Shown here: in pieces, positions 1-13,418 of the stretch | How positions within the stretch are numbered: position 1 is the stretch's first letter | How the letters are laid out: every line of letters starts with the position of its first letter | Source: Proteinivorax hydrogeniformans | GTDB taxonomy: Bacteria; Bacillota; Proteinivoracia; Proteinivoracales; Proteinivoracaceae | NCBI RefSeq assembly: GCF_040515995.1 | Contig: NZ_CP159485.1 | Location: 2,480,001-2,544,000, forward strand | Reading direction: 5' to 3' | Length of the DNA stretch: 64,000 nt | Notes under the pieces: generated by a model | The model's database searches: none | Told to the model about the DNA's origin: nothing | Seen by the model: only the letters and a program-made list of their open reading frames with translations | Program-made: the position numbers and the translations under genes

Positions 1-1950
1 TGCTGTTTCCGTTAAAAATATATCCTGTACAACTAAGAAACTTTCTTTTAGCCCCTTAATTACATGGTTTGTATCAGGATCAGATAACACAGGGTTTTCT
101 CCCATAATGTAAAGCATTTTAATTTTTCCGCTTTCTGCATGTTTCATCATATGAGTCATGGTCATCCCAGTTTCACCAGATAGCTTTGTTCCCCAAGCCT
201 TTTCAAACTTTTCCTGAACTTTTTTATCGCCAATAGGCTGATATCCAGTATAAACGACAGGTAAAGCACCCATATCACAGGCTCCCTGTACGTTGTTTTG
301 ACCCCTTAGCGGGTTAATTCCTGTTCCTTCTCTACCCAAGTTGCCAGTAACCAAAGCTAGATTAGATAGACTGATAACACCGTCTGTTCCTTTATGATGC
401 TGAGTTATTCCCATGCAGTAGAAAATACTTCCTCTATCGTATTTAGCGTACATTCTGGCAGCTTTTCGGATATCTTCTGCATCTACCTCACAAATCTCTG
501 CTACCTTTTCAGGGGTGTATTTTTTCAATACTTCTTTCAACTGCTGGAAACCTTCAGTATTTTTCTCAATATACTCTTTGTCCTCTAGACCTTCCTCTAA
601 AATCACATTTAGCATTCCATTTGATAATGCAATACTGGTACCTGGTTTGATTTGTAAAAATACGTCAGATACATCCTCCAGTGAAATTTTGCGAGGATCA
701 GCTACTATTAATTTGGCACCTTTTTTAACCGCTCTTCTAATACGCGCTCCAATAACAGGGTGATTTTCTTCTGTATTTGTACCTGTTAAAAATATAACTT
801 CTGCCTTGTCTATCTCTGCGATACTATTTGTCATAGCTCCACTTCCAAGTGTAGTTGCAAGACCTGCAACTGTAGAGCTGTGTCAGAGTCGAGCACAGTG
901 ATCAACGTTGTTTGTACCGATACCTGCCCTAAAAAACTTAGTCATCATATAATTATCTTCTGTTATAGCTCTAGCGGAAGAAAATCCACCGATAGCATCA
1001 GGTCCATCTTGTTCTTTAATTTCAGTTATTTTGTCCGCTATTCTTTGATAAGCTTTCTCCCAAGTTGCTTCTTTGAGCTCACCATTTTCTCTTACAAGTG
1101 GTTTGCTTAGTCTATCAGGGTGGTTAATAAAATCAAAAGCAAACTTGCCCTTTACACAAAGCAAACCTTGATTCAACTTACCTTTTACGGGATTGACCTC
1201 AACTATCTTGTCATCTTTAGTGGAAAGTTCTAGCTGACAACCAACTCCACAGTATGAACAGGTGGTTTCAACTTTTTCTGTTTCCCAGTGCCTATATTTA
1301 TGTTTTGCTTTCGGCATCAGTGCTCCTACTGGACAATTTGAGACGCAATTTCCACAGGACACACAATCTGTCTTTGTTAACTCTTTGACAATGTTTTGGG
1401 GAGCTTTAACATACCCTTGCATACCTTGTCTTACTAAAGATAACCCTTCTACACCCTGTAACTGTGTGCAGATTTCCACACATTTTCCGCACGCGATACA
1501 TTTCTCTCTATCAATGTAGTAAAAAGGATTTTTATCGAAAAGTTCCTTTGGAGCAATATTTTCTCTAAAATAGTCAGGTCCTTTAACATCGTATTTATAG
1601 CAATACGTTTGCAAATCACAATGCCCTGACTTTTCACAGGTTAAACAATCTAAAGGATGATCAGCCAAAACTTCTTTAAGAATCTCTTGTCTAGCTCTAA
1701 CCACATTGTTAGATTCCGTCCAAATCTCCAAATTATCCTTTACCATTACATCAGTAGAATCGACTAGACTCTCTTCTCCTTTTATTTCGACAATGCTTAA
1801 GTCAGCTCCGCTATCTACAGTTTTCATCTCAAAGCGTTCGTCATAATTTAAAGTTGGTATATTTATATTGTTCAAGCGAGCTGCATTAAAAACACTTATT
1901 CCTTCTTCACATTGGACAGGTCGTCCGTTAATTTTAATTGTTATCATCAT
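1..1950 (-). CDS. fdhA: Selenocysteine-containing formate dehydrogenase alpha subunit (3' end beyond window)
   Basis: Molybdenum/tungsten bis-MGD enzyme that interconverts formate and CO2. Reading through an in-frame TGA at 885-883 joins an N-terminal frame ending NVDHCARL to a downstream frame starting HSSTVAGLATTLGS, the usual context of the FdhF active-site Sec (about residue 356). Domains in order: degenerate ferredoxin-like region (about 1-75), His-Cys3 cluster region (HPLDCLTC), two 4Fe-4S motifs (CIACGKCVEIC, CVSCGNCVSNC), the 4Fe-4S of the catalytic domain (CSYCGVGC), then the molybdopterin domain, which runs off the left edge. The N-terminal [2Fe-2S] cysteines are absent. The start is taken as ATG 1950 (or ATG 1947) behind AGGGGTG; it overlaps the end of the hydrogenase gene, so the two are probably translationally coupled. 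Identity as a Sec-FDH is firm; its electron partner is inferred from the operon. Confidence 0.95.
853..871 (-). promoter_or_regulatory. Bacterial SECIS hairpin of fdhA
   Basis: Starting 11 nt after the UGA codon, the minus strand forms a 7-bp stem (AGUUGCA/UGCAACU) with a GGUCU loop. This closely resembles the apical part of the E. coli fdhF SECIS, whose loop is also of the GGUCU type and is bound by the SelB C-terminal domain. It supports recoding rather than termination at 885-883. Confidence 0.85.
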
Positions 1951-3703
1951 GTTCACCCCTTACATCAACATTTTTCGTAGAGCGATCAATATAGTGGGTA
2001 TGAAGTAAATCGTGAGCTTTATGTCCACCTGGCTGCCCCAAATAATTATCATACAATTTGCTAATTAGAGGATTCTCATGAGACCGGCGCAAGGTAGAGT
2101 TTCCATCTGTTTTATAAATGCCTGCCATTCTCTTTTTAACTGTTTCCATAGAATCTGGAATAGGGGCTCCTCCTCCATTAATACAACCTCCTATACATCC
2201 CATTATTTCTACAAAGTGATATTGTTTTTCACCATTTTCAATTTTTTTCATTAGCTCCTTAGCAGCAGCTGTACCATGGACAACAGCAATTTTGACCTTC
2301 ATATCTGCTATTTTAATCTCTGCTTCTTTAGCATTTGTCAGTCCTCTTACACCTTCATACTCTATTTTGTCTAGTTTGCCTTCACTAAGTTTCCAAGCAA
2401 CTGTTCTTAAAGCTGCTTCCATAACTCCACCTGTTGTACCAAAAATTCTTCCAGCACTAGTGTGATCTCCTAAAAAGTTGTCAAAACTTTCTACGTCAAG
2501 CTTTGCAAATTGAATTTTTTCCATCTTTATCATTTTTGCTAACTCTCTCGTTGTCAGTACCGCATCTACATCTTTTAAGTCGTTGACTTTTAATTCTTCT
2601 CTATCTGCTTCGAATTTTTTAGCAGTACAAGGCATTATAGATAGGCTAAATATTTTTTGAGGTTCTAAATCATTAATTTCTGCATAATAGGACTTAGACA
2701 AAGCACCGAACATTTGTTGTGGTGATTTACAAGAAGATACATTTTCCAATAAGCGGGGATGATTATGTTCTACATACTTTACCCAACCTGGAGAGCAGGA
2801 GGTTAACAACGGAAGCTTTTCACCTTTTTGGATTCTGTCAATAAACTCAGTTCCCTCTTCCATTATTGTCAAGTCTGCGGTAAAATCGGTACTAAATACT
2901 TTGTCTGCACCTAGTTTCCTTAATGCTGCATTGGTTTGTCCTGTAACATCAGTGCCAGGCTCCAACCCAAATTCTTCACCCAAAGTGTGTTTAACAGCTG
3001 GTGCTGTTTGTACCACTACGTGTACATTAGGATCATTTATAGCTGCACGTACTCTATGGATATCATTTTTCTCTACTAACGCCCCTACAGGACATACTTT
3101 TATACATTGACCACAGTTTATACAATCAGTTTCTGAAATAGGTTCCTTTTCTTTAGTGTTAATAACTGTGTCATGTCCTCTTTCGGTATAATCATAAATG
3201 CCTATGTCCTGTGTTTCCGAACAAACTCTAACACAATTTCCACATACTATGCATTTATTTATATCTCTAGTAATGGAAGTACTTGATAAATCAAGAACTT
3301 CTTTTTGTGGCAAAGTCTCCAGCAATTGCTCTTTTCTATTAACATCATATTGGTAACAAAGGTTTTGCAATTCACAATCTCCAGCTACTTTATCGCAAGT
3401 CAAGCAATCATTTGGGTGATTGGCAATTAAAAGTTCTAACGTCGCTTTTCTTGAATCTTTAATTCTCTCTGTTTCTGTGCGCACTACCATTTTGTCTTTT
3501 ACTTTTGTATTACAAGAAGCCAAAAGCTCCTCTTCTCCATCAACCTCCACAACACACATTCTACAATTTCCCTCATCATTCAAATCGGGATGAGTACATA
3601 AAGTAGGGATGTTAACTCCATTTTTCTTACATACATCCAAAATTGAATTATCTTCCGTAGCAACTACATTTTTACCATTTATAGTCAATCTAACTGTTGC
3701 CAT
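1934..3703 (-). CDS. hydA: [FeFe] hydrogenase catalytic subunit, HndD/HydA type
   Basis: Produces or oxidises H2 at an H-cluster. About 589 residues in the order: [2Fe-2S] ferredoxin domain with all four cysteines (CTHPDLNDEGNCRMC ... SC), His-Cys3 cluster (HPNDCLTC), two 4Fe-4S motifs (CIVCGNCVRVC, CINCGQCIKVC), H-domain and small C-terminal subunit-like domain. H-cluster motifs are TSCSPGW (about 303), MPCTAKKFE (about 359) and EIMGCIGGCINGGG (about 501). The TSCSPGW form with a nearby SSCKSPQQM is, as I recall, usual for subunits of multimeric hydrogenases. Start chosen at ATG 3703, 7 nt after GGGAGG; an ATG at 3709 is too close to that site. It lies between the NuoF-like gene and fdhA, with an overlap into fdhA. 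Confidence 0.95.
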   Translation of the reverse strand: MATVRLTINGKNVVATEDNSILDVCKKNGVNIPTLCTHPDLNDEGNCRMCVVEVDGEEELLASCNTKVKDKMVVRTETERIKDSRKATLELLIANHPNDCLTCDKVAGDCELQNLCYQYDVNRKEQLLETLPQKEVLDLSSTSITRDINKCIVCGNCVRVCSETQDIGIYDYTERGHDTVINTKEKEPISETDCINCGQCIKVCPVGALVEKNDIHRVRAAINDPNVHVVVQTAPAVKHTLGEEFGLEPGTDVTGQTNAALRKLGADKVFSTDFTADLTIMEEGTEFIDRIQKGEKLPLLTSCSPGWVKYVEHNHPRLLENVSSCKSPQQMFGALSKSYYAEINDLEPQKIFSLSIMPCTAKKFEADREELKVNDLKDVDAVLTTRELAKMIKMEKIQFAKLDVESFDNFLGDHTSAGRIFGTTGGVMEAALRTVAWKLSEGKLDKIEYEGVRGLTNAKEAEIKIADMKVKIAVVHGTAAAKELMKKIENGEKQYHFVEIMGCIGGCINGGGAPIPDSMETVKKRMAGIYKTDGNSTLRRSHENPLISKLYDNYLGQPGGHKAHDLLHTHYIDRSTKNVDVRGEHDDNN

Positions 3704-3723
3704 TTTCATACCTCCCTTAGCTC

Positions 3724-4881
3724 TTATTCCTTATGTTGAAGACTCGCCATAATTGGATTTATAGCTTTATTTCCAAACCCACATAAAGAAGAATCTTTTA
3801 TTGCTTTTGCAAAAAACTCAACTAGTTTAACCTTATCCCGTTCTCCTTCAAAGAAAGCTGGCACAAGATCTCCCATTCTCTTTAATCCCTCTCTACATGT
3901 GGAACATTTGCCACATGATTGCTGTGAATTATGTTGCACTGAGTTAACAATAAGTTCTGTTAACCTTTTTTTATCTTCTATAACTTCTACAGGACTCGCC
4001 CCAAGTAAAAAACCTTCCTTCTTTGAGGTTGCATAATCAATCTTTGTTGTTTTTAGTTGTTCCTCGGTTAAAACCCCACCTAAACTTCCCCCAACATTTA
4101 TAGCATACAGATTGGGAATGTTTATTCTTTCACTTGCTTTTTTAATTAATTCTTCGAAGTTAGAGCCTAGCTCCATAGTAACTAGACAACCTTCCTGACC
4201 ATTCTGCACATAAAATACTTTGCATCCATAATTATCTGCTTCCCCCATAGTCTTAAACCATGAGCTTCCATTTTCCACTATTAAAGATATATTAATTAAA
4301 GTTTCTACGTTAGCAATAAATAGCTTGCTTTGCTGCCATGTATTTTTGGCTTCTAAAAATGGGTAACGTCCGTGACTTAAATTTTCTTTATAATTAGTTA
4401 AAAGTGCGATGTCATTATCAAAAAAAATATTTTTTTCATCTACATCAATAATGTCAATCTTTAACTCTTTAGCCTTAAAATAACCCATTTTACCCATTTG
4501 TTTAATAGTTAGTTTTAACATTCTACTAATCAACTGGTGGCTTTCGTTTATAAAAATGCTAACTTTTGATGCTTTTACCGCCTTTGCAGATAAAACTAAT
4601 CCTTGAACTAAGTGGTAGGTATTCGATGAAGCTAAGCCATTATCTAACTTTGAATTACCGATATGCAAAACTACTTCTTTAGAGCCAGTATATTTTGCTA
4701 CCTCTTCCATATAATTACCGATAAATATTTTTCTACCATCCCTGCTGAGCAGCTCAGCTTCTTTTATCTCTTTAATAACTTCTTCGCCTTTACTTTCTAC
4801 GACAGCCATTGAGTCAAAAGCGAGTTTCTCCACATCATATTTTTCTAAACCTTGTTCGTTTAGAGATAAAACTCTTTCCAT
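3724..4881 (-). CDS. NuoF/HydB-like subunit lacking the FMN/NADH-binding motifs
   Basis: Homologue of the 51-kDa diaphorase subunit found in bifurcating hydrogenases and complex I. The C-terminal half is recognisable: NVETLINISLI, the soluble-ligand-binding beta-grasp region (about 225-300), and a 4Fe-4S motif CGKCSTCREG ... LCGFGNKAI. In the N-terminal half, where the family has the glycine-rich GRGGAGFPTG FMN loop and NADEGDPGAF, this protein has SRDGRKIFIG and HIGNSKLDNG. Both flavin/nucleotide signatures are therefore gone. At 385 residues it also lacks the N-terminal thioredoxin-like extension and C-terminal ferredoxin of larger HydB proteins. No NuoE (24-kDa) gene is nearby. A structural or electron-wiring role in an FDH-hydrogenase complex is likely; direct NAD(P)H oxidation is unlikely. 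Confidence 0.85.
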   Translation of the reverse strand: MERVLSLNEQGLEKYDVEKLAFDSMAVVESKGEEVIKEIKEAELLSRDGRKIFIGNYMEEVAKYTGSKEVVLHIGNSKLDNGLASSNTYHLVQGLVLSAKAVKASKVSIFINESHQLISRMLKLTIKQMGKMGYFKAKELKIDIIDVDEKNIFFDNDIALLTNYKENLSHGRYPFLEAKNTWQQSKLFIANVETLINISLIVENGSSWFKTMGEADNYGCKVFYVQNGQEGCLVTMELGSNFEELIKKASERINIPNLYAINVGGSLGGVLTEEQLKTTKIDYATSKKEGFLLGASPVEVIEDKKRLTELIVNSVQHNSQQSCGKCSTCREGLKRMGDLVPAFFEGERDKVKLVEFFAKAIKDSSLCGFGNKAINPIMASLQHKE

Positions 4882-4982: not shown

Positions 4983-4998
4983 AGCAATTGTCATGCCA
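4983..4998 (-). promoter_or_regulatory. Sigma-54 (-24/-12) promoter of the hydrogenase-FDH operon
   Basis: The minus strand reads TGGCATG-N4-TTGCT, matching the sigma-54 consensus TGGCAC-N5-TTGCW at the invariant GG and GC with correct spacing. It lies about 100 nt upstream of the first gene of the operon (ATG at 4881). A sigma-54 activator gene is present at 7307-9553. Confidence 0.82.
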
Positions 4999-5052: not shown

Positions 5053-5068
5053 GTCCTAATTTTAGGAC
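5053..5068. promoter_or_regulatory. Candidate upstream activator site (palindrome)
   Basis: Inverted repeat GTCCTAA-TT-TTAGGAC, perfect over 7 bp per arm, centred about 70 bp upstream of the -24 element of the sigma-54 promoter. That is the usual place for enhancer sites of NtrC-type activators. A further TAGGACA-like half-site lies at 5161-5167. Binding by the neighbouring activator is inferred. Confidence 0.5.
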
Positions 5069-5188: not shown

Positions 5189-5237
5189 AACTAAAAAATG
5201 GTACCTGCTATTACTAGCAGATACCATTTTTTAGTTT
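5189..5237 (-). terminator. Rho-independent terminator of the chemoreceptor-type sensor gene
   Basis: Long hairpin with arms AAAAAATGGTA.CTGCTA and TAGCAG.TACCATTTTTT, followed on the minus strand by further T-rich sequence. It overlaps the stop codon at 5231. Confidence 0.8.
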
Positions 5238-7123
5238 AAATTGTTTTTTCCAGTTAGTTCAGAAGAAGTATTAGATAAATCTTCTAACGACGAATTTGTT
5301 TCCTCAGATATAGCCATAACGTTTTCCATTTTTTCTCCTACGATGCTAATAACTTTATTAAGTTTATCTACTGAATCTTCTATGGTTTTTACACTCTTTA
5401 CTCCACTACTATTATTTTTTTCTGTTTGGGATACCACAACCTCAGATTGTTCTGCAAGCTTTCTAACTTCCTCAGCAACGACGGCAAACCCCTTACCTGC
5501 ATCTCCTGCTCTGGCAGCCTCTATAGATGCATTTAAAGCAAGCAAGTTAATTTGTTCTGCAATTTCTACAATTTTGTTTGACATTTCTTCATGCTCCGAA
5601 AAAGTTTTCGTCAATAAATCAACGCTGTTAATAGTATCTTGAGATGCAGTTTCTATATCTCCCATCTGACTGTTTATTTCATACATATCTTTAGCCGTCT
5701 CTTCTGAAACTTTGGTCAAATCATTAATAATGCTGTTTATATTTTCTGCCCCTTGCTTTATGTTTTTCAATAACATCTCTTGTTTTTGGGAGTTTTTTCT
5801 AGTTAACTCTGCATTTTGTCGTTCTTCATTTAACAACTTTTCCTGTTTGATTTCCCCTTCTCTTCTATTATATTCTATACAGTTTTCTAAAACGTTGTAA
5901 TTTAAGGCGATAACTTTAACCATATCTTCACAACTTTTATAACCACAAGCAGCACAATCAAAACTTTTATCTTCATCGGTTTTTTTGTGAAGTTTACTGT
6001 AAATTATATCCTTTTGATTTTGTTCAACCTTTTTCTCTTTCCATCTATTATTATAAGTTACCTTAAAGTCATCTACCCGTAGCTTTTTCTCGAAATTTTT
6101 CACCATATCTCTTGGAGAAACTTTCGAAAAAAGCCCTTTCTTTTGTGCAGTTATTTTTTTAGTCTTCTCATACAAAATAGCATCCATTTCATCAGAACTC
6201 ATCATGTTTTCGGTAGCAGTTCCCAGCAAACATCCTTCTGAGCAATTAAGTATATCTATAACAAAAGGAAGCTTCCCCTGTCTTTTGTTGATACCAGATA
6301 AATAGTTTTGAACTAATTTAGGTCCTTCAATTTTTTTAATATGAAATCCCTTTCCATAAACCTGCTCAATACTTTCTTTTAATCCCCCAGGAGTGGGATA
6401 CCAAAACCCTACTAAACTTTCAGGAGAGTCAAAGTTTTCTTCTTTTTCCCATTCCCCTTCTTTTCTGTACAACTCCATAATTTTTTTAAATGTAATGTTA
6501 TAATCAATATGCTTATGTCTTCTGAATTCGTCGGTTTTTGCTATACAAGGCGACAGTGCAGCTATTTTCCCCTCAAACCCTTCATATTTTTTCAAATATA
6601 TAGCTGCACAAGACATAGGTGAGCCAACCGGGCTTAAATATTTTAATAAATTTGGATAATATCGTTCGATACTGTTCACAATCACAGGACATGGTTGAGA
6701 AATGATAGTTTGTAAACTTTTTTCTTCAAAAATTTTCATATAAAGAAATGTAGTGATATCTGCCCCAAAGCTAACATCATAAATCAATTGGATTCCTTTA
6801 CTCTTTAACCAAGCAAACACCTTTTTGTACTCATCGGGATAATTTAACATAAAAGCAGGGGCAACTACTATAGATATTTTTTTGTTTTGCTGAAGATCTG
6901 TTAAAAGCTGCTCTATATCGTCTTCATAATATCTGGCTTGATGGGTACAAGCTTTTATACACTCCCCACATGTTATGCACTCCTCATTTGCTATATCAAC
7001 TTTTATTGCCCCAGATTCATCTTTAAAGGCTTTATTGGCCAATATTTGAGGGCATTCCCTAATACATTTATCGCATCCTGTACATTGTTCTTTATTAGTT
7101 TTTATTATTTTTTCTCCTAACAT
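5231..7123 (-). CDS. Hydrogenase-like sensor fused to a methyl-accepting chemotaxis signalling domain
   Basis: 630-residue soluble protein with no membrane segment. Order: two 4Fe-4S ferredoxin motifs ([22 protein letters not shown]; about 14-60), an [FeFe]-hydrogenase large-subunit C-terminal-type domain (about 80-310), a further 4Fe-4S motif CAACGYKSC (about 390-398), a coiled coil, then an MCP signalling domain whose tip [16 protein letters not shown] lies near 526-540. The four H-cluster ligand cysteines are present: QPCP (145), SPC (193), C294 and C298 in NCSEGC; the AK of the second motif is kept. The proton-relay Cys is Pro and the GGGQP ending is lost, as expected of a sensor rather than a turnover enzyme. 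It has its own sigma-54 promoter and sits beside the hydrogenase operon. Probable job: report H2 or redox state to CheA/CheW; output is inferred. ATG with GGAGG upstream. Confidence 0.88.
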
Positions 7124-7172: not shown

Positions 7173-7188
7173 AGCAAATACTATGCCA
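7173..7188 (-). promoter_or_regulatory. Sigma-54 (-24/-12) promoter of the chemoreceptor-type sensor gene
   Basis: The minus strand reads TGGCATA-N4-TTGCT, with GG and GC in the correct positions, 50 bp upstream of the ATG at 7123. It is very close to the promoter at 4983-4998, suggesting joint control by one activator. Confidence 0.78.
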
Positions 7189-7255: not shown

Positions 7256-7294
7256 GGCTGCACCATTATAGGATAATCCTATGATGGTGCAGCC
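7256..7294 (-). terminator. Terminator of the sigma-54 activator gene
   Basis: Near-perfect hairpin GGCTGCACCAT...ATGGTGCAGCC followed on the minus strand by TCTTTTACTT, just after the stop codon at 7307. It separates the activator transcript from the sigma-54 promoter at 7173-7188. Confidence 0.8.
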
Positions 7295-7306: not shown

Positions 7307-9553
7307 CTAAGATATTTCTGTTGTTAAGTTATATTTTTTTAGTTTTTCATAGAAATTTGATCGGGATATATTTAAAAGCTTAGCAGCTTTAGTCCTGTTA
7401 TTATTAGATCGTTTTAGTGCATTAACCAATACCTCTTTTTCCACTCGCTCCAAAATTTCATCTAAAGGTTTATTAGGATTAGTTATATTAGTGCCTTGAC
7501 TTTGATTTTCCCAAATAGATTCAGGTAAATGTTCTGGTAAGATGGTATCTTCCTCTACAAGATTTAACAATCTCTCTAATAGGTTTTCTAATTCCCTTAC
7601 ATTACCAGGCCAGCTATAGTTGCACAACATTTCTTTTGCCTTTGCGCTAATGGATTTGCAAGGCAATTTATGTTCTTTAGAAATCTTATCTTTGAGTGAA
7701 TCAATTAGTAAACCTATATCATCTTTATGCCTCTGCCTTAAAGGTGGAATGGTAAAGGTAAGCACGTTCAGTCTGTAAAACAAGTCTTCTCTAAAGCCAC
7801 CTTTATTTATTTCTTGTTTTAAATCTTTATTAGTAGCAGCTATAATTTTAACATCTAGTTTTATAGATTTATCCCCACCAATCCTCATAACTTTTTTATC
7901 TTGTATTACCTGCAAAATTTTAGCTTGCATGACAGGACTCATATCGCCTATTTCATCTAAAAAAATAGCGCCTTTATTTGCCTGTTCAAATTTCCCTATT
8001 TTACCACCTTTTTTAGCTCCTGTAAACGCTCCTTCTTCATACCCAAATAGTTCCGACTCTAAAAGCTCATGGGGTATAGCGCTACAGTTAATTTTAACAA
8101 AGGGTTTGTCTTTTCGTTCTCCTAACCTATGAATAGTTTCAGCAAAAAGACCTTTACCTGTCCCACTTTCACCTAAAAGTAACACTGTAGAGTCGCTTTT
8201 GCTGGCTTTAAAAACAAAGTTCTTAGCTGCCAATATTGACTGGGAACAGCCAACTATGTTTTGGTCTATTTCGTTATACAGTTGCAAGAGATTCTGAGCT
8301 TTTTTCTGATAGTGAGTCGCTCTATTCTCAGTTAACTTCAGCAAATAAGGAAGGCACATCTCCACCTCAGCAACACCGTGATATACAGCCACTGCTTTAT
8401 CTCTACAAGTTTCATAACCACAGGCTCCGCAGTTTAGTTCGTCCTGTTTCTCAAATTTCTCACTATATTCTAAAATTCTTACTATTTCTTTTTCTGAAGG
8501 GAAACTTTTTTTCTTTTTTAAAACACGAAATTCTCTCGACAAGTCAATCTCAACGTAATAATCTGGAGATTTGGGGGCCTTTTGCTTTTTTTCTTTTGCA
8601 AAATTAACCACTTTATTTTTTTTATATTGATTAGTACTTTTATCACCATAAAAATCCGGTCCATTTATACAACCTTTACAATATAAGATATCAATAAGTG
8701 CCGGTTTGAGCTCATTATTTTCAATTCCGTTTAAAGTTTCTAGAACTTCCTCTTTCCCTTCAACCACAGACACATCATTATTTAGTAAGTCGCCATCAAT
8801 ATTAGCTGCTTTTAGCAGCCCACCAGATATAGGAAACAGCTGACCTAAATACTCTTCACTCAGATAGTCGAGGGGTGCTTTCTGACAATCTTCTATATTA
8901 ATTTTTTTCTTTTTTAATAAGCCTTCTAATTCAGAAAACAACAACGCATAATCTACTTTTCCATCTACAGACTCATGGGTAATTTCTGACTTTTTGGCAA
9001 CACATGGGCCTATAAAAACAACTTCTACCTGTTTATCCCAACTTTGTTTTACAAGATCACCCATAGCTATCATTGGTGAAACAATATGAGCTAGATTATC
9101 AATTAAATTAGGATAATGTTTTTTAACTATATTAATTACAACTGGACAGGGTGATGTTAATATAGGTTTATCCAACGGCTTTTGATAAATTTTTTTGTAC
9201 TCTTGTGCTACAATCTCAGCTCCTTGCGCTACTTCATAAACTTGACTAAACCCCATTTTTTTTAATGCTCCCACTAGTTTATAAGGATCCTCTTTAAAAA
9301 AAGCCACAAAAGATGGAGCCATCAAAGCTACTGTTTTTGTATTTATACTGTTAAGAGATTTTTCTACATCACTGTCAAAATCCTTTAAAACTTTGTTGCT
9401 CTGGCTACAGGCTTTTATACAAAACCCGCAGCTTACACATTCTTCTTCTATTAAACTTGCTTGCTCCCCTTTAAAACCAATAGCATTTACTGGGCAATGA
9501 CGCACACAGCAATAGCACCTTTTACATTGTTTGCCTTGAGATGCTATTATCAC
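7307..9553 (-). CDS. Hydrogenase-like sensor fused to a sigma-54 activator (AAA+ and Fis HTH)
   Basis: Predicted enhancer-binding regulator of about 748 residues. The N-terminus has two 4Fe-4S motifs (CKRCYCCVRHC, CVSCGFCIKAC), then a hydrogenase-like domain with SPCP (about 139), GPCVAKK (about 187) and YCKGC (about 295), then 4Fe-4S motif CGACGYETC (about 377). The remainder is a complete NtrC-type module: Walker A GESGTGKG (about 465), sigma-54-contacting GAFTGA (about 511), Walker B FLDEIGD, and a C-terminal Fis-type HTH (TKAAKLLNISRSNFY). The last H-cluster motif has CxxC where enzymes have CxxxC, and the relay cysteine is absent, consistent with sensing. The start is GTG 9553, 10 nt after AGGGGG; a TTG at 9562 is too close. 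Two sigma-54 promoters lie next to it, so they are the natural targets. Confidence 0.9.
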   Translation of the reverse strand: MIIASQGKQCKRCYCCVRHCPVNAIGFKGEQASLIEEECVSCGFCIKACSQSNKVLKDFDSDVEKSLNSINTKTVALMAPSFVAFFKEDPYKLVGALKKMGFSQVYEVAQGAEIVAQEYKKIYQKPLDKPILTSPCPVVINIVKKHYPNLIDNLAHIVSPMIAMGDLVKQSWDKQVEVVFIGPCVAKKSEITHESVDGKVDYALLFSELEGLLKKKKINIEDCQKAPLDYLSEEYLGQLFPISGGLLKAANIDGDLLNNDVSVVEGKEEVLETLNGIENNELKPALIDILYCKGCINGPDFYGDKSTNQYKKNKVVNFAKEKKQKAPKSPDYYVEIDLSREFRVLKKKKSFPSEKEIVRILEYSEKFEKQDELNCGACGYETCRDKAVAVYHGVAEVEMCLPYLLKLTENRATHYQKKAQNLLQLYNEIDQNIVGCSQSILAAKNFVFKASKSDSTVLLLGESGTGKGLFAETIHRLGERKDKPFVKINCSAIPHELLESELFGYEEGAFTGAKKGGKIGKFEQANKGAIFLDEIGDMSPVMQAKILQVIQDKKVMRIGGDKSIKLDVKIIAATNKDLKQEINKGGFREDLFYRLNVLTFTIPPLRQRHKDDIGLLIDSLKDKISKEHKLPCKSISAKAKEMLCNYSWPGNVRELENLLERLLNLVEEDTILPEHLPESIWENQSQGTNITNPNKPLDEILERVEKEVLVNALKRSNNNRTKAAKLLNISRSNFYEKLKKYNLTTEIS

Positions 9554-9589
9554 ATATACCAATCCCCCTAGACTTTATTTTGAAACCTA

Positions 9590-9786: not shown

Positions 9787-10986
9787 TTACACTAATTTTA
9801 GGTTAAAGAATTCAACACAGCGAGGAAAAGCACCAGTAAAGTACGCTAATATAATTCCATAGTTTGTGATGGCAACACTTTTTTCCTGACAAAATCTTAT
9901 CCTATTCATCATTGTCTTTTTATTTACCATGCAAGACCCACAATGGATAACAAGGTCATAGCCTTCGATATCTTCTGGAAAGTCATTGCCCATTTTAAAG
10001 TCAAATTTTATGTTTTCATCAATATGTTTTTTTATCATGCGGGGAATCTTAACTCTTCCTATATCTTCATGAGAATGATTATGGGTACAACTTTCTGAAA
10101 TAAGAACTTTTGATTGTCCGTTTAGTTCTTTTAGTTTCTCTATCCCATAAACGAAAGTTTCAAGATCACCTTTATATCGAGCAAATAGAATTGAAAAACT
10201 AGTCAAACTCATTTCTTTAGGTACAATTTTGTTAACTTCTCCAAAAGCTTGAGAATCTGTAATCACTAAATCAATATCTTTGATCTCACTTAAAGCTTCA
10301 TTTAGCTCTGTGTCCCTTACAACATGGCATTTTATACCGTGATCAAGGCAGTCTCTAATCACCTGTACTTGTGGCAAAATCAGCCTCCCTTTTGGAGCTT
10401 CTGAATCTATAGGTACTACCATTAACACATTTCCCCCGTAGGGAACTAAATCTCCAACAATTGGCGGATCTGTCTCTTTTTTTTGCAATCTATTTATAAT
10501 TTCATCTTTTAATTGTAGGATATTTTGATTTTCTAGCGCCGAAACAGCTATGGGATTATCTAGCTTTTGCATAAAATCATTTAAATCTTTCTTTAAAACA
10601 GTATCCATTTTGTTAACCACAGTCAGGTACGGAATGTTATACTTCTTAAAATTATCTAGCGCATTATAATAATCATCTAGGTTAGGGTCATTAACATCTA
10701 AAACGTAAATAGCAAAGTCCGTTCGTTGTAGTATCTTAAGTGTCTTATTTACCCTTAGACTTCCTAACTCACTATCATCATCTAATCCAGCTGTATCAAT
10801 AAACACCACAGGCCCAAATGGAATAAGCTCCATACTTTTAATTACGGGGTCTGTAGTAGTTCCTTTGACATCAGACACTATCGAAATCTCTTGGCCTATC
10901 ATGGAATTTAGCAAGGTAGATTTGCCTGAATTAGTCTTTCCATAAATGGCGATATGCTTTTTACTCCCTCTTGGTGTGTTTTGCAT
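9787..10986 (-). CDS. hydF: [FeFe] hydrogenase maturation GTPase HydF
   Basis: Scaffold protein that receives the 2Fe subcluster built by HydE and HydG and delivers it to apo-hydrogenase. The N-terminal Era/TrmE-like GTPase domain shows GKTNSGKST (P-loop), DTAGLDD (G3) and NKMD (G4). The C-terminal domain has the cluster-binding HxH...HCxxC signature (HNHSHED, then HCGSC). At 399 residues it is normal length. It is the last gene of the maturation operon, 9 nt after hydG, with AGGAGG before its ATG. Confidence 0.96.
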   Translation of the reverse strand: MQNTPRGSKKHIAIYGKTNSGKSTLLNSMIGQEISIVSDVKGTTTDPVIKSMELIPFGPVVFIDTAGLDDDSELGSLRVNKTLKILQRTDFAIYVLDVNDPNLDDYYNALDNFKKYNIPYLTVVNKMDTVLKKDLNDFMQKLDNPIAVSALENQNILQLKDEIINRLQKKETDPPIVGDLVPYGGNVLMVVPIDSEAPKGRLILPQVQVIRDCLDHGIKCHVVRDTELNEALSEIKDIDLVITDSQAFGEVNKIVPKEMSLTSFSILFARYKGDLETFVYGIEKLKELNGQSKVLISESCTHNHSHEDIGRVKIPRMIKKHIDENIKFDFKMGNDFPEDIEGYDLVIHCGSCMVNKKTMMNRIRFCQEKSVAITNYGIILAYFTGAFPRCVEFFNLKLV

Positions 10987-10995
10987 AGTATCCTC

Positions 10996-12372
10996 CTATA
11001 AGAAAATGTCTTTTTTACCATTCTTTAGCTTTTCTAAGCAATTTATTGTTTGCTTTTTAAGTTCGTTATTTTTCATTCCTTTGACTTTAAAATCAATAAG
11101 CTTTTCACTTTTTTTTAAAAGCTCTCTATCTCCATAGTTTAGAACAAATTCCATAAAAGTAATTAAAGCGTTAGGTGTACATACATTTTGTATCTGTCCA
11201 GTTTTGGTCATCTTTGCAAATTTCTCGCCGGTTCTTCCTTGTCTGTAGCATGCAGTGCAATAGCTAGGGATATGCCCAGAATCAACAAGTTCTTTTAAGA
11301 TCTCAACGACAGTTCTATTATCATCAACATCGAATTGCTTATTTTCGCCGCCAGAGCCTGAAGCTTTATAGGCATTAACACCAGTGCATGAGCCCGCACT
11401 AATCTGAGATACGCCGTACTCTATAACTTCTTTCCTCATCTTAGGTGTTTCTCTAGTGGATAGTATTAGTCCGGTATATGGTAGGGCTAGCCTTAAAATA
11501 GCGACCACTTTTTTAAAGGTTTTATCATCTAAGATATGAGGAAACTCGTTAATCTCCATGCCTTCAGCCTTCTTTAGCCTAGGAACTGATACGGTATGAA
11601 AACCTACTCCATAATGTTTTTCTAAGTGTAAATTGTGCATCATAAGGGCTAAAACTTCGTATTTGTAATCAGCTAAGCCAAATAGCACTCCACCTCCTAC
11701 ATCATCTAATCCCGCCTCCATAGCTCTATCAAATGCTGTTAGATGATAATTGTAGTCACCTTTTTTCGAATTTGCATGAACCCTTTCAAAAGTTGGCTTG
11801 TGATACGTTTCTTGAAATAAAATATAAGTACCGATATCTGCACCTTTGAGCTTTTTATAGTCCTCCACAGAGGTAGCAGCGATATTTACATTTATCCTTC
11901 TTATCTCCCCTCGCTTTGAATAAGTTGAATAAATTGTATCAATTGCTTTTAACACATATTCGATATTACAATTTATGGGGTCTTCGCCAGCTTCTAAAGC
12001 CAATCTTTTATGCCCCATTTCTTCTAAAAGGGTTACCTCCTCTTGGATTTGTTTTTGGCTAAGTCTTTGCCGCTGAAATTTATTATCTCTTTTGTATCCA
12101 CAGTAAGAACAATTGTTGACACAAAAATCACTAACATATAGCGGTGCAAACAGAACAATTCTATCTCCATAAATCTCCTTTTTTATTTTACCCGCTGCTT
12201 TATAAATTTTCTGCATTTGTTCACTATCTGAAACATGTAGTAATGTGGCGACGTCCTTATACGATAGCTCTACCTTATTTAATGCTTTTTGTAAAATTCT
12301 ATCCACTTCTGCTGCGGTATATGTTTTAGTTTCCTTAAGTACACCTTGTATAAAATCATCTTTTATAAAAAT
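10996..12372 (-). CDS. hydG: [FeFe] hydrogenase maturase HydG (tyrosine lyase), probable AUU start
   Basis: Radical SAM enzyme that splits tyrosine to supply the CO and CN- ligands of the H-cluster. The SAM motif is CVNNCSYC; the C-terminal second-cluster motif CTAC-x22-C is present (CTACYRQG ... VC). No ATG, GTG or TTG precedes residue 23 in this frame; the first is GTG 12306, which has no ribosome binding site. Residues just upstream (FIKDDFIQGVLKETK) align with the conserved N-terminus of HydG proteins. An ATT at 12372 lies 8 nt after GGAGG within the end of hydE and would give 458 residues, the usual length. The start is therefore placed at that ATT. Function is certain; the start is inferred. 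Confidence 0.9.
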   Translation of the reverse strand: MFIKDDFIQGVLKETKTYTAAEVDRILQKALNKVELSYKDVATLLHVSDSEQMQKIYKAAGKIKKEIYGDRIVLFAPLYVSDFCVNNCSYCGYKRDNKFQRQRLSQKQIQEEVTLLEEMGHKRLALEAGEDPINCNIEYVLKAIDTIYSTYSKRGEIRRINVNIAATSVEDYKKLKGADIGTYILFQETYHKPTFERVHANSKKGDYNYHLTAFDRAMEAGLDDVGGGVLFGLADYKYEVLALMMHNLHLEKHYGVGFHTVSVPRLKKAEGMEINEFPHILDDKTFKKVVAILRLALPYTGLILSTRETPKMRKEVIEYGVSQISAGSCTGVNAYKASGSGGENKQFDVDDNRTVVEILKELVDSGHIPSYCTACYRQGRTGEKFAKMTKTGQIQNVCTPNALITFMEFVLNYGDRELLKKSEKLIDFKVKGMKNNELKKQTINCLEKLKNGKKDIFL

Positions 12373-13418
12373 TATAATCTCCTCCAGTTTTTATGATCTC
12401 CTCGCGACATATCTAAAGAGTAGCCTATATCACTTACTTTGCCCTCTATATGTTTTCGACATTGGGCGGCTTCATCTGAAACACAAATCTTGCCATTGTA
12501 AAGTGCATATTTTGCCCTCACATTTGTTGGTGATAAATTAGGCATAACCACATTTGCACCAAATCTTATTCCTTGTTCACGCCCTATAGGATCAACACTC
12601 CCTAATGCAGTAGTGGCTGGCAGAAGCACCTTTGGCAGCATAAGGCGGACAATAGCTAGCAAAGTAACAACCTGACGAACGCTGCCGTTAACTTCTCCTT
12701 CTAAAGGTGTGTTATCGTGGGCTATAAATGGCCCTATTCCAATCATTTCAGGTTGAAGTTTTTTTAAAAACATAAGATCTTCGACATAGTCCTTAGTGGT
12801 TTGCTTAGGTAAACCTACCAAAAATCCAGCACCAACCTGGTAACCAATTTTTTTAAGATTCCATAGGCATTGCTTTCTACTTTCAAGGCTCATATTGGGA
12901 TGATACTTTTTATATAAAACTAGCGCCGCTGTCTCATGCCTTAAAAGATACCTATCAGCTCCCGCTTCATAATACTGTTTTAAAGAATTAAAGCTCTTCT
13001 CCCCTAAAGATAGCGTCAGTGCGCAGTCAGGGAGGGCCTTTTTTATAGCTCGTATTACCTCAATTATTTTTTCGTCGGTGTAGTAAGGATCTTCTCCCCC
13101 CTGTAGCACAAAAGTCCTATACCCAAGCTTGTAACCAGCATCACAACAATCCAAAATTTCTTCTGCTGATAACCTGTACCTGTCTGCCTTTTTATTATCA
13201 TGCCGTATGCCACAGTAAACACAGTTTTGTTTGCAATAATTGGTAAACTCAATTATCCCTCTTGTATAAACTGACCTTCCATACTCTCTAATTCTTACTT
13301 CATCTGCTTTTTCTCTCAAATATTCAAGGCTTTTATCATCGATATTATCTAGTAGATATTCAAATTCTTCTCTGTTTAAGGATTGATTATCACAAAGTTT
13401 ATCTATTACTGTTTTCAT
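12372..13418 (-). CDS. hydE: [FeFe] hydrogenase maturase HydE
   Basis: Radical SAM enzyme that processes the HydG product during assembly of the 2Fe subcluster with its dithiomethylamine bridge. 348 residues, TIM-barrel type, with SAM-cluster motif CKQNCVYC near residue 62 and GGEDP further on. The start ATG overlaps the stop of the preceding 85-residue gene by 4 nt, and its own stop overlaps the proposed AUU start of hydG, so the operon is tightly coupled. Confidence 0.96.
   Translation of the reverse strand: MKTVIDKLCDNQSLNREEFEYLLDNIDDKSLEYLREKADEVRIREYGRSVYTRGIIEFTNYCKQNCVYCGIRHDNKKADRYRLSAEEILDCCDAGYKLGYRTFVLQGGEDPYYTDEKIIEVIRAIKKALPDCALTLSLGEKSFNSLKQYYEAGADRYLLRHETAALVLYKKYHPNMSLESRKQCLWNLKKIGYQVGAGFLVGLPKQTTKDYVEDLMFLKKLQPEMIGIGPFIAHDNTPLEGEVNGSVRQVVTLLAIVRLMLPKVLLPATTALGSVDPIGREQGIRFGANVVMPNLSPTNVRAKYALYNGKICVSDEAAQCRKHIEGKVSDIGYSLDMSRGDHKNWRRL

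Follow-up and report, generated by a model that had tools for sequence, protein, structure and literature searches.

The receptor gene occupies positions 5231..7123 on the minus strand of the window, the 64 kb stretch of DNA that was analysed. It encodes a protein of 630 amino acids from an ATG start codon, and the boundaries of the open reading frame are exact. The encoded protein comprises, in order, a ferredoxin segment with motifs for two [4Fe-4S] clusters, an [FeFe]-hydrogenase H-domain, a Cx2Cx4Cx16C FeS motif and a methyl-accepting chemotaxis protein (MCP) signalling domain. The N-terminal ferredoxin-like segment (6935..7105, minus strand) was matched by the Pfam families Fer4_10 (aa 7-59, 1.3e-8) and Fer4_7, and its eight cluster cysteines (C14, C17, C20 and C24; C49, C52, C55 and C59) were invariant columns in the family alignments. 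The H-domain (aa 82-301; 6221..6880, minus strand) was identified as Fe_hyd_lg_C (PF02906, 1.6e-29) and the C-terminal region (aa 494-623) as MCPsignal (PF00015, 3e-26), the latter with a score of 92.8 bits compared to a cut-off of 34.6. Since the highest hydropathy value over 19 residues was only 1.24, the receptor was concluded to have no membrane segment. These results agree with the initial annotation, which had described the product of this open reading frame as a soluble chemoreceptor whose input domain resembles a hydrogenase and which lacks a membrane segment. Comparison with a 97% identical orthologue from the same genus gave a dN/dS ratio of approximately 0.16 (0.0092/0.0568), and the receptor gene is therefore under purifying selection.

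The H-domain pocket was compared by aligning 88 family members to the catalytic and sensory H-domain proteins of this genome. It had been noted from this one sequence that all four ligand cysteines were in place and that proline replaced the relay cysteine; both observations held throughout the family, with C145, C193, C294 and C298, as well as P144 at the relay position, invariant in 88/88 members. The L1 motif, ISQPCP (6686..6703, minus strand), carries Pro144 at the relay position (C299 of CpI) and Cys145 at the ligand position (C300), and its Q-P-C was likewise invariant (88/88). The L2 motif, SPCIAKTDE (6527..6553, minus strand), provides Ser191 (CpI M353), Cys193 (C355) and Lys196 (K358), and the lysine equivalent to K358 of CpI was retained in all 88 family members. 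The L3 motif (6221..6256, minus strand), which contains NCSEGC, provides Leu292 (CpI M497), Cys294 (C499) and Cys298 (C503). Several pocket invariants, namely Gln298, Pro299, Leu497 and Asn498 in CpI numbering, are family-specific and unlike the residues of the catalytic enzymes.

Two further features, neither of which was in the initial annotation, were identified. The first was an extra, family-specific cysteine, C172 (6608..6610, minus strand), present in 84 of the 88 members and located two residues past S168-P169-M170, a loop that lines the active-site pocket; no equivalent of C172 was present in the other aligned hydrogenase-like proteins of this genome. As a guess, C172 might have taken over from the lost relay cysteine. 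The second was the C-terminal Cx2Cx4Cx16C motif (C390, C393, C398 and C415; 5879..5956, minus strand), which is evident in the sequence and formed invariant alignment columns. This motif is the C-terminal cluster motif of the group C and D sensory hydrogenases (Land et al., PMC8163306).

The receptor combines several features of a sensory-type protein: an H-domain with the four H-cluster cysteines, two N-terminal [4Fe-4S] motifs and the C-terminal Cx2Cx4Cx16C motif. Loss of the relay cysteine, Cys299, is also a feature of the group C and D sensory proteins, and the receptor has Pro144 at this position; proline is found there in approximately 10% of the sensory sequences in HydDB (2023 study, PMC10055695). 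When scored with the NCBIfam models for catalytic enzymes, the receptor was far below the cut-offs (131 bits compared to 450 for group B1, and 93.7 compared to 405.95 for group A). Together with the absence of the relay cysteine, these scores suggest that it is not a catalytic group A or B [FeFe] hydrogenase. HydDB names [FeFe] group C2 "chemotactic (putative)", with action via methyl-accepting chemotaxis proteins (PMC5037454); the receptor and this group share a putative H2 sensor type with an MCP output, and by the published description of a group that was itself defined by sequence clustering, the receptor appears to be of the C2 type. Since group C2 had already been named, the idea of a hydrogen-sensing chemoreceptor is not new. 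The literature that was found contained neither a characterised H2 chemoreceptor of the group C2 type nor a group C2 protein with H2 or H-cluster data.

A scan of GTDB species genomes yielded at least 584 confirmed relatives, which were distributed over the Bacillota, Spirochaetota, Fibrobacterota, Pseudomonadota, Calditrichota, Acidobacteriota and other phyla. An MCP output was present in 69 of the 79 scanned tails (78 relatives and the receptor itself); the remaining tails included histidine kinase, PAS and diguanylate cyclase domains. Maximum-likelihood analysis placed the receptor-type sensors in one group with a support of 100/100, apart from the C-type sensors, the sensors of the sigma-54 activators and the proteins of types A, B and D. 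The receptor clade and the sampled C-type clade from the Bacillota were separate, each with 100/100 support and, as judged by these C-type sensors sampled from Bacillota, the receptor would fall outside the kinase- and phosphatase-linked HydDB groups C1 and C3.

The initial annotation had regarded the sensor module as paralogous. A level of approximately 31% identity to the sensor of a sigma-54 activator was consistent with this proposal, but the two sensors belonged to different old clades; the receptor sensor is therefore no recent duplicate, and a recent duplication of the neighbouring activator's sensor was rejected. It had also been suggested that the same fusion be sought beside hydrogenases in other genomes. 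The fusion itself was common, but hydrogenase or maturase genes were found within the available flanks of only approximately 8 of 88 loci, many of these flanks ending at contig ends, and a conserved hydrogenase neighbourhood was rejected as a property of the family.

An AlphaFold2 model of the receptor had a mean pLDDT of 84.5, with values of approximately 73-79 through most of the signalling hairpin. In its N-terminal part, the model matched solved [FeFe] hydrogenases (Z of 26-35 over approximately 280-360 residues, rmsd of approximately 3 Å); the tables from this fold search were filled by H-domain matches, which placed the C-terminal domain and the hairpin outside its reach. The MCP signalling hairpin (5237..5878, minus strand; PF00015 at 7.5e-28 for that part alone) was modelled as one helix, residues 416-538, that starts right after C415, and a return arm, residues 540-629. 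Since C415, the last cluster cysteine, abuts helix 416-538, the model offers a direct connection between the last cluster and the signalling hairpin. Solved structures that ranked among the best matches to the MCP half included 3g67 and 3g6b, in which chain residues 19-187 aligned with aa 451-619 of the receptor at equal length. These entries are of TM14, a soluble chemoreceptor of T. maritima; in contrast to the receptor, the solved TM14 chain comprises a signalling domain and lacks any hydrogenase-like input.

The genome, which consists of one contig of 2.83 Mb, encodes one CheA and one CheW, located next to flagellar genes and to CheC and CheD (the latter two identified by sequence), together with 16 MCP domains. 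The initial annotation had named a genome devoid of chemotaxis genes as grounds for abandoning its proposal; with CheA, CheW, CheC, CheD and 16 MCP domains present, those grounds fall away.

Directly upstream of the receptor gene is the gene for a sigma-54 activator (7307..9562, minus strand), which consists of a sensor with ferredoxin, H-domain and FeS parts (PF02906, 5.8e-52), an AAA+ domain (PF00158, 3.2e-66) and a Fis-type HTH (PF02954, 3.6e-15). The activator gene is followed by an inverted repeat (7256..7294, minus strand) with 19-nt arms that are 95% complementary; this repeat is a likely terminator, and the receptor gene is therefore probably a separate transcription unit. The maturases are encoded just upstream of the locus (9787..13418, minus strand), in the order HydF (9787-10986), HydG (10996-12306) and HydE (12372-13418), with scores over the cut-offs of TIGR03918, TIGR03955 and TIGR03956, respectively. 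The minus strand also carries a hydrogenase operon, the first gene of which encodes a HydB/NuoF-like subunit (3724..4881; PF10589, 1.6e-15). It includes the genes for a catalytic [FeFe] hydrogenase, HydA (1934..3709; NCBIfam group A6, NF040763, 821 bits, over the cut-off), and the N-terminal part of a formate dehydrogenase (FDH; 883..1956), the reading frame of which is interrupted by an in-frame TGA (883-885) and extends beyond the window. The FDH alpha subunit gene (genome positions 2479254-2481956) contains a single in-frame TGA, located where selenocysteine would be expected; when read through this TGA, it forms one frame of approximately 900 codons.

A search of the window with a strict sigma-54 pattern (TGGCAYRNNNNTTGCW) gave two matches, compared to 0.08 expected from shuffled sequences. 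One, TGGCATAGTATTTGCT (7173..7188, minus strand), is a -24/-12 promoter match approximately 50 bases before the start codon of the receptor gene; the other, TGGCATGACAATTGCT (4983..4998, minus strand), precedes the HydA/selenocysteine-FDH operon. Genome-wide there were 15 strict sites, compared to none for the reversed pattern. For 12 of the other 13 sites, a reading frame began 24-128 bases further on, and five other sigma-54 activators of the genome were followed at close range by a strict site on the same strand; sigma-54 itself is also encoded. Both sites in the window were kept in a genome from the same genus, the sequences of which are closely similar there overall. No sigma-54 promoter was found before the receptor gene in other genera, and such a promoter was rejected as a family-wide feature; this genus was the only one in which the sigma-54 link to the hydrogenase/FDH operon was observed. 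A palindrome upstream of the operon promoter, GTCCTAAAATTAGGAC (5053..5068, minus strand), was a candidate activator site and was present in the same-genus genome; since the window contains no second copy of it, a role as shared activator site found no support. From its position, the activator at 7307-9562 is likely to drive both sigma-54 promoters. The presence of two strict promoters and an adjacent activator with a hydrogenase-like sensor suggests that these genes form one H2/redox regulon.

The reading to which we give about even odds (a probability of roughly 0.5) is that the receptor mediates H2 taxis as a cytoplasmic, H-cluster-bearing protein that is co-regulated with the HydA/selenocysteine-FDH operon. 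By this mechanism, the ferredoxin segment and the H-domain would bind FeS clusters, and the H-cluster would be tuned for sensing and not for fast turnover. H2, or electron pressure equilibrated with H2, would shift the state of the H-domain. This state would be passed to the C-terminal domain and from C415 to helix 416-538, the first arm of the MCP hairpin; the resultant change in the hairpin would alter CheA activity and, in turn, flagellar behaviour, which could carry the cell either towards or away from H2. The receptor gene would be transcribed from its sigma-54 promoter, most likely via the activator at 7307-9562, and the same activator would switch on the HydA/selenocysteine-FDH operon; with a common activator for both promoters, the receptor and the enzyme would therefore be made together. 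We infer that H2 is a plausible stimulus of the receptor, and redox state is also possible.

Two sensory hydrogenases provide points of comparison. TmHydS (group C, M2f) from Thermotoga maritima shares with the receptor the two N-terminal clusters, the H-domain, the C-terminal Cx2Cx4Cx16C motif, the lack of a relay cysteine and a proposed role in signalling. It differs in having a PAS domain, Ala299, Gly353 and Ser497 (PMC10055695, PMC8163306), where the receptor has an MCP domain, Pro299, Ser353 and Leu497. TamHydS (group D, M2e) from Thermoanaerobacter mathranii resembles the receptor in its architecture up to the C-terminal cluster and in having Ser353 and Leu497, and is characterised by slow H2 chemistry and an increased affinity for H2 (PMC8163306). 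In contrast to the receptor, TamHydS has no output domain, and the receptor sensor clade is apart from the group D-like protein of this genome.

The main rival to H2 taxis is redox or energy taxis through plain FeS clusters, a lesser but real possibility. In this case, the H-domain would hold only [4Fe-4S] clusters and no [2Fe], would equilibrate with ferredoxin and would report reducing power, not H2. Nar1-type H-domain proteins carry only [4Fe-4S] clusters, and the eight N-terminal cluster cysteines, the C-terminal cluster motif and the family-specific pocket invariants that are unlike those of catalytic enzymes are all consistent with such a sensor. The distribution of the maturases bears on the same question. 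Among Bacillota genomes, HydG was detected in 27 of the 35 that have the sensor, compared to 186 of the 363 that lack it (Fisher p = 0.004); HydG was found at the same rate in genomes with other H-domain sensors (95/119), and an enrichment special to the receptor clade was rejected. In 8 of the 35 sensor-containing Bacillota genomes neither HydG nor HydF was detected, and in one such genome (G331, 98% complete) the sensor was the sole H-domain protein. When the pocket residues were compared between genomes with and without HydG, there was no difference; retention of an identical pocket where HydG and HydF were undetected, as in G331, favours plain FeS clusters. However, most of these eight genomes carry other group A or B [FeFe] hydrogenases, and their maturases may therefore be divergent or may have been missed. 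The interpretation that missing HydG and HydF meant no H-cluster was withdrawn, since nearly all such genomes have group A or B enzymes.

Residue identity at the pocket points both ways. The CpI variant M497L was without properly integrated [2Fe] (PMC10055695), and the leucine of the receptor family at this position counts against an H-cluster. TamHydS, which has Ser353 and Leu497, works with an H-cluster (PMC8163306); the receptor family has this same pair of residues, which counts against an H-domain devoid of [2Fe], as does the presence of HydEFG next door. In this HydEFG-containing organism, the receptor H-domain would most likely hold an H-cluster.

It is unlikely that the MCP domain signals to a non-flagellar target, or that the protein modulates the receptor array with no taxis role of its own. 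The histidine kinase, PAS and diguanylate cyclase outputs to which the sensor is fused in relatives indicate that it is not bound to taxis, but the search of this genome for CheW-domain proteins gave no others than CheA and CheW from the flagellar operon, and the tip of the MCP hairpin is canonical in sequence. Sensing of another small molecule (CO, NO or O2) by the H-domain pocket is less likely still: [FeFe] hydrogenases react with CO and O2 (as in group D; PMC8163306) and the invariant Pro144 and conserved C172 could change the pocket, but no gene of the neighbourhood points to CO, NO or O2, and the linked operon encodes a hydrogenase and an FDH.

A broader proposal, which we consider doubtful, is that these proteins are a large, multi-phylum chemoreceptor family in which the H-domain does not need [2Fe], an invariant Gln-Pro stands in for the relay cysteine, C172 is an additional conserved cysteine and reducing power is read. 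In this genus, the receptor would belong to a sigma-54 regulon under a second H-domain sensor that also drives the hydrogenase/FDH operon, and two hydrogenase-derived sensors would jointly control enzyme expression and movement. New here are the sigma-54 link to the hydrogenase/FDH operon and the Bacillota genomes with an unchanged pocket in which maturases were undetected. A response of the receptor to H2 would account for the way in which anaerobes locate or evade this gas under syntrophic and fermentative conditions; a response to redox state alone would call for a new label for the proteins termed "H2-sensing" across hundreds of genomes. One soluble receptor, one CheA, an adjoining activator and two defined promoters make up a compact set in this organism.

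Several further observations were made on H-domain proteins and their maturases. Group A or B [FeFe] hydrogenases were found with HydG and HydF both undetected in genomes G372, G031, G022, G148, G368 and Desulfocucumis palustris (G089); a similar absence of maturases has been stated for Desulfitobacterium hafniense DCB-2 (PMC9888536). Hydrogenases have CxxGC as their L3 motif, which is reduced by one residue to CxGC in the activator at 7307-9562, and this shortened form was present in all 13 of the activator-type sensors examined. In HydA (1934-3709), the L1 motif is TSCSPGW, with serine where CpI has the ligand Cys300, as in HydA1 of PDB 7q4v. Genome positions 2459950-2462217 encode another sigma-54 activator that carries a hydrogenase-like sensor; its gene adjoins those for a 209-aa protein and a molybdopterin oxidoreductase-like protein. 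Elsewhere (genome positions 428452-431354), a 577-aa C-type H-domain protein is followed by a 390-aa phosphatase-like protein, the arrangement expected of group C3.
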